Source: Qipengyuania sp. JC766
GTDB taxonomy: Bacteria; Pseudomonadota; Alphaproteobacteria; Sphingomonadales; Sphingomonadaceae
Reading direction: 5' to 3'
Length of the DNA: 64,000 nt
NCBI RefSeq assembly: GCF_040717445.1
Contig: NZ_JBFEFL010000001.1
Span: 372,001 to 436,000 of the forward strand
The notes below the pieces were generated by a model that saw only the letters and a list, made by a program, of their open reading frames with translations, had not been told where the DNA came from and made no database searches. This document shows, piece by piece, positions 30,783-32,765 of the stretch. A program made the translations under genes and the position numbers. The first letter of the stretch is position 1, and every line of letters begins with the position of its first letter.

Positions 30783-30876
30783 GGTGGCCGGGTAGCAGCA
30801 ATCGCTTAAAAAATCCTGCGTCCCGCGACCATTGCCCAGCTTTGACACAGGGGGACAAGCAGGGCAGCACGCTTGC

Positions 30877-31824
30877 ATGCGTCCGGACGCCTCACCGTTT
30901 GCCGATTCGAACATTCGTCATGGGGGCACGATTCCCGGCACCGGGAAGCCCGCCTTTTCGTTGCGGATGGCCAATCCTCCGGCAACGCCGATCCTTCTGG
31001 CCGCACCCCATGCGGGCCGTGCCTATCCCGATCGCGTCCTGCGCCGGATGCGGCAGCCCGATTGGGCCCGGCTGCGGCTGGAAGATCGGCTGACCGACAA
31101 GCTCGCCGGCGAAGTCGCCGCCCGAACCGGTGCCGCGCTTCTGGTGGCACACGCGCCGCGCGCCATGATCGATCTCAACCGGTGCGATACCGATATCGAC
31201 TGGAGCATGGTGGCTGAACCGGAGCGCCGATCGGCTCCCCGGCCCCACGGTGAATGCCGTGCGCGCAACGGGCTGGGGCTGGTGCCCCGAAGGCTGGCGG
31301 GGCTGGGAGAGATCTGGCGCGGGCCGATCTCGGGTTCCGATCTCGATGCGCGTATCGGGCAGATCCACGGACCCTACCATCGCGAACTGGACGGCGCCCT
31401 CGACACAATCCATCGCGACTGGGGTGGGGCCTTGCTGCTGGACCTGCATTCCATGCCGCCGATCGGGAAGCGGCATCCTTCGGACCGTCCGGCGCGGTTC
31501 ATCCTCGGAGACAGGTTCGGCACATCGTCCGACGATCGCCTGGTGGCAACTGCGCTCCGTTCCCTCGCCGGCGCAGGGGCGACCGTGGCGCATAACAGGC
31601 CTTATGCGGGCGGCTATATTCTCGAACGGCATGGCAAGGCATCGGAGGGCCGTCACGCAATCCAGCTGGAGATATGCCGGTCGCTCTATCTGGATGACGA
31701 GTGGAAGGGGCTGACCGATGGGTTCAGTGCCCTGGTGGACATCCTGGTCACGCTGGTGCGCAATCTGAGCGCCGAGATGCAGGCGATCACCGGGGACGAT
31801 CGTCTGCCCCAGGCCGCCGAATGA
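30877..31824 (+). CDS. N-formylglutamate amidohydrolase family protein
   Basis: A 315-residue FGase-family metallo-amidohydrolase: LAAPHAGRAYP near the N terminus, APRAMIDLNRCDTDIDW, GPYHRELD, LLLDLHSMPP (metal ligands) and RPYAGGYILERHG. Family members release formate from N-formylglutamate in one histidine-degradation route; no other hut genes are nearby, so another N-acyl substrate is possible. The exact start is uncertain: ATG 30877 is used, an ATG at 30967 would also keep the whole domain. It is divergent from cpdR. Confidence 0.82.
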   Translation: MRPDASPFADSNIRHGGTIPGTGKPAFSLRMANPPATPILLAAPHAGRAYPDRVLRRMRQPDWARLRLEDRLTDKLAGEVAARTGAALLVAHAPRAMIDLNRCDTDIDWSMVAEPERRSAPRPHGECRARNGLGLVPRRLAGLGEIWRGPISGSDLDARIGQIHGPYHRELDGALDTIHRDWGGALLLDLHSMPPIGKRHPSDRPARFILGDRFGTSSDDRLVATALRSLAGAGATVAHNRPYAGGYILERHGKASEGRHAIQLEICRSLYLDDEWKGLTDGFSALVDILVTLVRNLSAEMQAITGDDRLPQAAE

Positions 31825-31832
31825 ACCGCCCA

Positions 31833-31866
31833 TAAAAAACCACCTCGTGCGAGATGCACGAGGTGG
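31833..31866 (-). terminator. Intrinsic terminator for the sapC transcript
   Basis: A perfect 11-bp stem CCACCTCGTGC / GCACGAGGTGG with loop ATCTC, followed on the minus strand by TTTTTTAT. It ends transcription arriving from sapC, 123 nt after that gene's stop. Confidence 0.92.
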
Positions 31867-31988
31867 CCAAGGTTCAGGGAGGACGCACCATCGGGTGCGT
31901 CTGGAACCGGCGGCTTTGAGGGGGGAATTACCGCCGGTCCATGTAATTTGGGGGTCCGGCCTGGCCGGTTCAAGCCCCCTTGGAACCG
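31867..31988 (-). other. Structured 3' region of sapC, candidate 3'-UTR-derived small RNA
   Basis: The 122 nt between the sapC stop and its terminator hold several strong inverted repeats on the minus strand: CGGTTcCAAG/CTTGAACCG, CCGGCC/GGCCGG, CCGGCGG/CCGCCGG, and GACGCACC/GGTGCGTC. A CCAAGG near the 5' side can also pair with CCTTGG immediately before the terminator. Unpaired segments include C-rich stretches (TTCCCCCC, CCTCCCTG) complementary to Shine-Dalgarno sequences, as in several alphaproteobacterial sRNAs. I cannot name an RNA family. Confidence 0.5.
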
Positions 31989-32765
31989 TTATTCCGCGTT
32001 TTCCAGTTTCGGGCCCTTGCCCTGCTGGACCTGGCGGAAAAAGATGGTCCGCATGAGTTCGAGCGAGAACGTCTGCGCATGGATCAGAGCCATGAGGCCG
32101 TTCTTGTTCCACTGGTCGAGCACATCGGTCGGGACCTGCGACAGTTTCTCGCCATTGATCATCTGGAAGCCGCGATAGACGAACGGCTTGGCGCCTTCGC
32201 CGTTCTGCTGGATGGTCACTTCGCCGTCCATCAGCAGTTCGTACTTCTTCAGTTCGTCGATGAAAGCGCGCGTGCGCTGACCGGCCTGTTCGAACTTCTC
32301 GCAGAAGTCGAGAATGCCCTTGGTGTTGTCGGTCGGCTGGTTTTCGTCGTCGAAAAGCTTTTCGCCCTCGTCGAACTCGCCCACCGTTTCAGAAGTCGGG
32401 TCGAAGCACAGCGACAGGTCGTCCGTATCGGGCTTCAGCTTGGCGAGCATGAAGGGATAACGGCGGATATACGCCGGCAGATAGACGGCTTCCGTGACCT
32501 TGCCTTCGTCATCCACGAAGGTGTTCACGCCTTCGTTGATCCCCATCAGCGCCAGCGGCATCGGGTTTTCGCCGGAGGAGAAGATGATCGGGTAGTGGCG
32601 CTGCGCCTGCACGAATTCGTCGACCGTGAGCGGAATGGCGTGCTGGTTCTTCAACCACTCGGCCGAGTCCATCGCCCGGGTCCTGAAGGTTTTATGGTCC
32701 CGGCTGTTGAGGGGCATCAGGTCGTTGTAGAAGAGGGGAAGCTGCGGCTGCGGCGCACTGGCCAT
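31989..32765 (-). CDS. SapC-family protein
   Basis: A 258-residue protein of the SapC family (named after a Campylobacter S-layer locus): starts with PLFYNDLMPLNSRDH, then PLTVDEFVQAQRHYPIIFS, PLALMGINEGVN, YLPAYIRRYPFML and FVYRGFQMI. In sphingomonads and Caulobacter relatives such genes occur near TonB receptors and tryptophan-halogenase-like genes, but neither is here. There is no signal peptide; function is unknown. The transcript has a long structured 3' end with a strong terminator. Confidence 0.85.
   Translation of the reverse strand: MASAPQPQLPLFYNDLMPLNSRDHKTFRTRAMDSAEWLKNQHAIPLTVDEFVQAQRHYPIIFSSGENPMPLALMGINEGVNTFVDDEGKVTEAVYLPAYIRRYPFMLAKLKPDTDDLSLCFDPTSETVGEFDEGEKLFDDENQPTDNTKGILDFCEKFEQAGQRTRAFIDELKKYELLMDGEVTIQQNGEGAKPFVYRGFQMINGEKLSQVPTDVLDQWNKNGLMALIHAQTFSLELMRTIFFRQVQQGKGPKLENAE

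Follow-up and report, generated by a model that had tools for sequence, protein, structure and literature searches.

A predicted alpha-r8-type small RNA gene with a conserved promoter-like site between sapC and an N-formylglutamate amidohydrolase gene in Qipengyuania sp. JC766

In the window, i.e., the whole 64,000-nt stretch of Qipengyuania sp. JC766 DNA analysed here, sapC and a gene for N-formylglutamate amidohydrolase (FGase) are convergent neighbors; beyond them lie a response regulator gene, a tRNA-Val gene and a gene of the isocitrate/isopropylmalate dehydrogenase family. At curated thresholds, the only Rfam match in the whole window was a tRNA. The 156 nt 3′ of the sapC stop (TAA, 31991–31989, minus strand) fold at −81.5 kcal/mol (z = −6.6), a stability reached by none of 200 dinucleotide shuffles, and without the terminator the region still gives z = −4.6 in the same kind of comparison. 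An earlier note on this DNA had described the region as strongly structured, and this is borne out by the fold and by compensatory changes in homologues (see below). The features of the locus are collected in Table 1.

Table 1. Features of the predicted sRNA gene and its neighbors (window positions)
Feature	Position	Strand	Basis and remarks
FGase gene	30832–31824	+	PF05013, E = 3.1e-60; convergent neighbor; coordinates are those of the longest frame, and the true start may be farther downstream
sapC	31989–32765	−	PF07277, E = 9.8e-70; upstream same-strand neighbor, outside the RNA
−35 box CTTGAA	31969–31974	−	Pattern search; matrix from 50 homologues, TTG in 50/50
−10 box CCCAAAT	31946–31952	−	16 nt after the −35 box; consensus CCTATCT/CCTAGAT
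Predicted sRNA, ~107 nt	31834–31940	−	R1 match 31942–31836, fold and terminator scan; 5′ end set 6–8 nt downstream of the −10 box; final T of T6 taken as the 3′ end
Hairpin 1	31902–31941	−	10/10 modelled pairs with double changes, 91.7% of cells paired (50 sequences)
C-rich loop of hairpin 1, CCCCCCTCA	31917–31925	−	Possible second anti-Shine-Dalgarno site
Hairpin 2	31882–31901	−	7/7 modelled pairs with double changes, 98.8% of cells paired (50 sequences)
Seed CCTCCCTGAACCTTGG, anti-Shine-Dalgarno	31867–31882	−	First 12–14 nt unpaired
Intrinsic terminator	31834–31866	−	11 perfect pairs, 5-nt loop ATCTC, T6

The minus-strand fold leaves an anti-Shine-Dalgarno stretch, CCUCCCUGAACC, unpaired between hairpin 2 and the terminator. 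The perfect 11-bp terminator stem with T6 that had been pointed out before was recovered (CCACCTCGTGC/GCACGAGGTGG, 31866–31840; T6, 31839–31834, minus strand); a terminator scan counts 13 pairs by including two G-T pairs. The inverted repeats noted previously correspond to hairpin 1, hairpin 2 and the terminator stem, plus CCGGCCAGGCCGG, which falls within the spacer of the sRNA promoter. Both C-rich segments named in the earlier note, TTCCCCCC and CCTCCCTG, are present in the sequence, and the C-rich stretches are predicted to be exposed, with a mean unpaired probability above 0.5 for the seed in 50/50 homologues and for the C-run of hairpin 1 in 49/50. The U-tail together with the exposed seed would be compatible with an Hfq-dependent trans-acting sRNA. 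The predicted length is shorter than the ~150-nt species once expected here, and the match of the covariance model R1 to the window copy spans contig positions 403836–403942.

A closing pair, CCAAGG/CCTTGG, had also been suggested. It exists in the window, where the upstream-to-seed duplex reaches −15.8 kcal/mol, but it is not conserved: CCAAGG (31983–31978) precedes the −35 box and is present in 2/50 homologues only, and the mean duplex among homologues (−9.0) is no better than that of shuffled sequences (−9.6). The closing pair was thus rejected as part of the conserved RNA and is placed outside it.

We examined whether the structure is maintained among homologous loci with two alignments. 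Thirteen sequences were aligned with MAFFT, unfitted to any model; in this alignment, from which the structure itself was derived, double changes were observed in 18 of 30 pairs and 92.3% of cells were paired, against 36.5–44.1% when slid. The covariance model R1 was built from this alignment and used to align 50 Sphingomonadaceae loci; the resulting alignment, whose fitting to the model favors the structure, contains double changes in 24 of 30 pairs, with 96.9% of cells paired against 34.3–48.6% when slid, and in it the compensatory changes proposed as a check are found. The terminator contributes double changes in 7 of its 13 pairs (99.7% of cells paired; 50 sequences). The seed CCTCCCTGAACCTTGG is identical in 47 of the 50 homologues, and the loop of hairpin 1 reads CCCTCA in 39 and CCCTTT in 10. 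Conservation is highest in the unpaired seed, not in the stems. Varying stems together with constant unpaired stretches are the pattern expected for a base-pairing RNA. A coding reading was checked by frame count, and closed frames of at least 15 codons are found in 16/50 homologues.

The RNA is widespread in the family. At the DNA level, 26 of 59 genomes searched (the own genome among them) had matches, which in most of these genomes cover the 3′ third alone, i.e., TCCTCCCTGAACCTTGGCCACCTCGTGC and the terminator. Three of the 29 loci were set aside (L028 and L029, which have no core, and L027, an antisense duplicate of L007), and the remaining 26 comprise 25 from Sphingomonadaceae and one from another family of the same order (L026). 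FGase lies within 1.5 kb in 25/26 of these loci and sapC in 23/26. R1 matches 246 of 298 Sphingomonadaceae genomes, with a single match per genome among the matches listed. Across the class, 12/289 genomes match, which are 3 in Sphingomonadaceae and 9 weaker matches, 6 of them adjoined by FGase; scans of more than 40 genomes ran with stricter filters, at which weak matches are lost. No sRNA match was found in the plasmids searched.

An exact search with a 21-nt core in named genomes returned at least 120 stretches, of which the 80 listed ones were examined; the genera among the matches listed include Sphingomonas, Novosphingobium, Erythrobacter, Sphingobium and Qipengyuania. FGase stands beside the RNA in 71/80 of these records, always convergent and at most 400 nt away. 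No FGase is seen in the other nine, in five of which the sequence on that side extends for at most 541 bases. The remaining four, all from Sphingobium (L245, L280, L299, L306), have enough sequence on the FGase side, so the FGase link is broken there. By comparison, sapC is present in 70/80 records, in 56 of them at a distance of no more than 700 nt, and it invariably precedes the RNA on its strand. FGase is the more constant neighbor. An exact core also occurs in a record titled Actinobacteria bacterium 21-64-8 (L276), which is probably a misbinned contig.

To which family does this RNA belong? The Rfam model RF00519 (suhB/MmgR) scores the window copy at 22.7 bits, a match that is not significant alone (E = 0.58; gathering cut-off 41). 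At relaxed thresholds, full-length matches were found in 10 of 12 Sphingomonadaceae loci (21.1–30.3 bits, none above 41), and L012 and L018 gave none. Other sequences bridge the gap. The FGase-adjacent locus from another family of the order (L026) scores 55.6 bits, and the cut-off is exceeded by 7 of 8 class-level R1 matches tested (L109 scores 36.4; L108, of the same genus as L107, was left out). Within Sphingomonadaceae, five loci were taken at which the RF00519-search match coincides with an R1 match (L352–L356). All five adjoin FGase and have the core, the hairpin 1 loop type and the promoter in common; L353 (43.6) and L352 (42.0) pass the cut-off, and L354–L356 score 32.4–34.6.

RNAs of the alpha-r8 family are described, in the part of the source available, from all Alphaproteobacteria except Rickettsiales, in the majority of species as a single copy next to FGase, and with the core UUUCCUCCCU (PMC12559287). 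The window core, CGUCCUCCCU, shares 8 of 10 bases with it, and orthologues such as L352, L353, L355 and L356 carry it exactly. The window locus has the FGase adjacency, the weak hairpin before the core and the Rho-independent terminator after it. Judging by the FGase neighborhood and the bridging sequences, the predicted RNA is a divergent orthologue of alpha-r8 (MmgR/SisA); since it scores below the cut-off, it is not classed as a member of RF00519. Among literature titles and abstract openings, no FGase-linked sRNA in Sphingomonadaceae was found; such copies in Sphingomonadales may be covered by the papers on alpha-r8 distribution, MmgR and TFA SuhB.

Hairpin 1, with its C-rich loop, is an addition to the canonical core that is not peculiar to the family. 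In L153, L165, L167 and L178, which belong to another family of the order, a CCCCCC-loop hairpin precedes a canonical alpha-r8 core, which suggests that the extra hairpin is older than Sphingomonadaceae. Another trait was seen in alpha-r8 genes of another family of the order (L151, L152, L154, L155, L157–L162, L164, L168, L171, L177): they have in common a 5′ segment that includes TTCTTGGTGTAGGA, and most have a CTTGATT...CCTAAATATAG-like upstream region.

The FGase-linked gene is accompanied by relatives elsewhere in the genome. Matches to RF00519 were found in 103 of 119 Sphingomonadaceae genomes, with 1–7 matches per matching genome; in a small number of these genomes, the FGase-linked copy is counted too. 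In the own genome, the sole match is another gene (C1:2579262–2579336, L052) with the core TCCTCTCCCAAGACTTT. Neither FGase nor sapC was found within 1.5 kb at any of 30 SuhB-type loci. As these matches have it, Sphingomonadaceae carry the predicted FGase-linked orthologue plus separate SuhB-type siblings. Sphingopyxis granuli TFA is a related bacterium, and the likely counterpart of its SuhB in the window genome, going by name and length, is L052. Many of the siblings (L052:1420–1575 and others among L040–L068) have an upstream TTGCA-N-TGCAA-like dyad and a TTTTCGCACTTGCACAAAA-like stretch, which we take to resemble sites of PhaR/AniA-type regulators; regulators of this type control mmgR in Sinorhizobium.

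A putative promoter precedes the RNA. In the window, CTTGAA-N16-CCCAAAT (31974–31946) begins 14 nt past the sapC stop, and all 50 homologues have, upstream of the R1 match, a six-base −35 box containing TTG, followed after 15–17 nt by a seven-base −10 box. A matrix was learnt from the 50 homologue promoters and then scored on other genes; with leave-one-out, the window promoter scores 19.6. Among the 80 listed records, 53 reach 17 and 73 reach 10, compared with 0 and 1 for shuffled sequences. Within 250 nt upstream of IbpA-like HSP20 genes, scores of 14.9–24.8 were obtained in 17/17 cases, 16 of which reach 17 (rounded), and groES gives 10.5–21.5 in 15/15, of which only four reach 17; other HSP20 genes score below 8 in 7/7. 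A score of at least 17 was reached by none of the gene controls (sapC 0/56, FGase 0/63, response regulator 0/58, SuhB siblings 0/20, and RNase P, scored in 80-nt windows, 0/17) and by 2/2978 random stretches; the 20 SuhB siblings are those of 30 whose strand was assignable, 10 being dropped. At a threshold of 10, the counts are 3/56 for sapC, 1/63 for FGase, 0/58 for the response regulator, 73/2978 for random stretches, 4/20 for SuhB siblings and 5/17 for RNase P. With a score of 16.1 for its SuhB sibling, the own genome does not show a clean contrast. A further candidate of the same promoter class was noticed in the own genome at C1:174422–174449, minus strand (L030), where CTTGAA-N15-GCTATCT stands 37 nt upstream of a lipoprotein gene whose product is presumably LemA-like.

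The presence of the same motif before IbpA-like HSP20 genes and, more weakly, before groES points to RpoH as the likely sigma factor, and from this likeness we consider it fairly probable that a sigma-32 type RpoH transcribes the sRNA. The competing reading, in which the same sRNA is made from a housekeeping sigma-70 promoter and hence is not a heat-shock RNA, seems to us rather unlikely, the separation of IbpA-like HSP20 genes from gene controls and random stretches at 17 being what speaks against it. It gains weight from several sides. TTGAAA-N17-TATCTT in several relatives resembles a sigma-70 promoter too; the two kinds of motif overlap in alphaproteobacteria, as the available part of one source describes for sigma-70 and sigma-H in Sinorhizobium (PMC3616915); some control regions that are not heat-shock genes, e.g., RNase P and the SuhB siblings, reach 10. 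Furthermore, alpha-r8 loci across the order, mostly of other families, have similar sites that score at least 17 in 11 of 27, which suggests that the promoter type may predate Sphingomonadaceae. A strict RpoH pattern matches the own genome 10 times against 11 for a control; it proves nothing alone, and the matrix comparison was used instead. Given the motif overlap and this unremarkable count, the RpoH assignment stays an inference, and both it and the heat-shock reading of the ancestral gene given below are rated slightly lower for the order-wide scores and the own SuhB sibling.

As to the origin of the RNA, the earlier note suggested a small RNA possibly released from the 3′ region of sapC; the structured sRNA is supported, the release is not. 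In that account, the RNA would be cut from the sapC 3′ UTR, e.g., by RNase E, and would have no promoter of its own. It fits the place of sapC, upstream on the same strand with its stop 14 nt before the −35 box and keeping this side in most listed records, and a read-through transcript of sapC would contain the RNA. However, the promoter-like site lies directly upstream of hairpin 1 in 50/50 homologues, and the RNA and its promoter are kept at loci without a nearby sapC, both in L017 and L018, where none lies within 1.5 kb, and in three of the five further stretches (L352, L355, L356), where none was found; the closing pair, which needs the sapC-proximal segment, is not conserved. Release from the sapC mRNA is not needed to account for the RNA, and promoter conservation and the loci lacking a nearby sapC make it very improbable. 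A further alternative, that the region serves solely as a strong terminator separating two convergent genes and makes no functional RNA, accords with its position between sapC and FGase and with the excellent terminator at its end, yet it is scarcely credible when the part most conserved is the unpaired seed and when hairpins 1 and 2, preceded by a promoter-like site, are held by compensatory change. We therefore regard the locus as very probably an alpha-r8-derived sRNA gene with its own promoter, encoding a trans-acting base-pairing RNA of about 107 nt.

For such an RNA, the following course of events may be proposed. A sigma-32 (RpoH) type holoenzyme would transcribe the sRNA, the level of which would rise with heat or protein-folding stress. 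Hfq would bind the U-tail, and the seed CCUCCCUGAACC would cover ribosome-binding sites of the GGGAGG type and so reduce translation of a group of mRNAs, perhaps aided by the C-rich hairpin 1 loop as a second pairing site. Hfq binding, expression and targets are here inferred from alpha-r8 relatives. The only place in the own genome with the exact 12-nt complement GTTCAGGGAGGA of part of the seed is the strand opposite the sRNA, and the six exact matches in 12 relatives likewise all fall at the sRNA locus; one-mismatch sites number 16 in the own genome against 8 for a control pattern. The best ribosome-binding-site candidate belongs to a gene for an SPFH/Band 7 protein, found in 13 of 19 genomes, and was rejected as a conserved target, long complementarity being present only in the own genome (judged by eye). 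The search of the own genome and relatives gave no conserved target.

If these predictions hold, an sRNA has been missed by Rfam's own threshold in this genome and, seemingly, in most of Sphingomonadaceae, including Sphingomonas, Novosphingobium, Erythrobacter, Sphingobium and other genera, and its origin is corrected from release out of sapC to a promoter of its own. The RpoH assignment would connect, in a way that can be tested, heat-shock control with an sRNA family hitherto associated with carbon storage and starvation; if it holds, the alpha-r8 neighborhood and seed have stayed fixed while the input signal changed. More tentatively, and in our view falling a little short of an even chance, the ancestral FGase-linked alpha-r8 gene would act in Sphingomonadales as a heat-shock sRNA with two separate anti-Shine-Dalgarno sites (the hairpin 1 loop and the linear seed), and the dispersed SuhB-type siblings of Sphingomonadaceae would keep the older metabolic role. 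This would amount to a division of labor within one ancient sRNA family, through promoter change and a second pairing site.

Among known systems, the closest are the alpha-r8 RNAs SisA–D of Caulobacter, which, according to the available part of the source, repress mRNAs at ribosome-binding sites together with Hfq (PMC12559287). Like SisA as described there, the window gene is FGase-adjacent and has a single-stranded anti-Shine-Dalgarno core, a weak hairpin before it and a Rho-independent terminator (PMC12559287). Unlike SisA–D, whose core is given as TTTCCTCCCT, it has the core CGTCCTCCCT and, near its 5′ end, an additional hairpin whose loop is C-rich, and whereas the portion of that paper at hand (PMC12559287) reports no common motif in the sisA–D upstream regions, the window lineage has a conserved heat-shock-like promoter. 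MmgR of Sinorhizobium meliloti is alike in that the RF00519 model aligns in full to the window RNA. MmgR is described, in the section of the source seen, as a 77-nt RNA controlled by NtrC and AniA that limits polyhydroxybutyrate (PMC8401924), and the window RNA, at ~107 nt predicted, does not reach the RF00519 cut-off, and its promoter is of another type. The 61-nt SuhB of Sphingopyxis granuli TFA represses in an Hfq-dependent manner at the 5′ region of an mRNA, going by the accessible portion of PMC6563040, and the same mechanism would be expected here. Finally, SmelA075 and SmelA099, the CCUCCUCCC-loop sRNAs of Rhizobiales, are characterized in the available text of PMC3927594 by anti-Shine-Dalgarno hairpin loops on variable stems, as in hairpin 1; they carry three or four such loops (PMC3927594).
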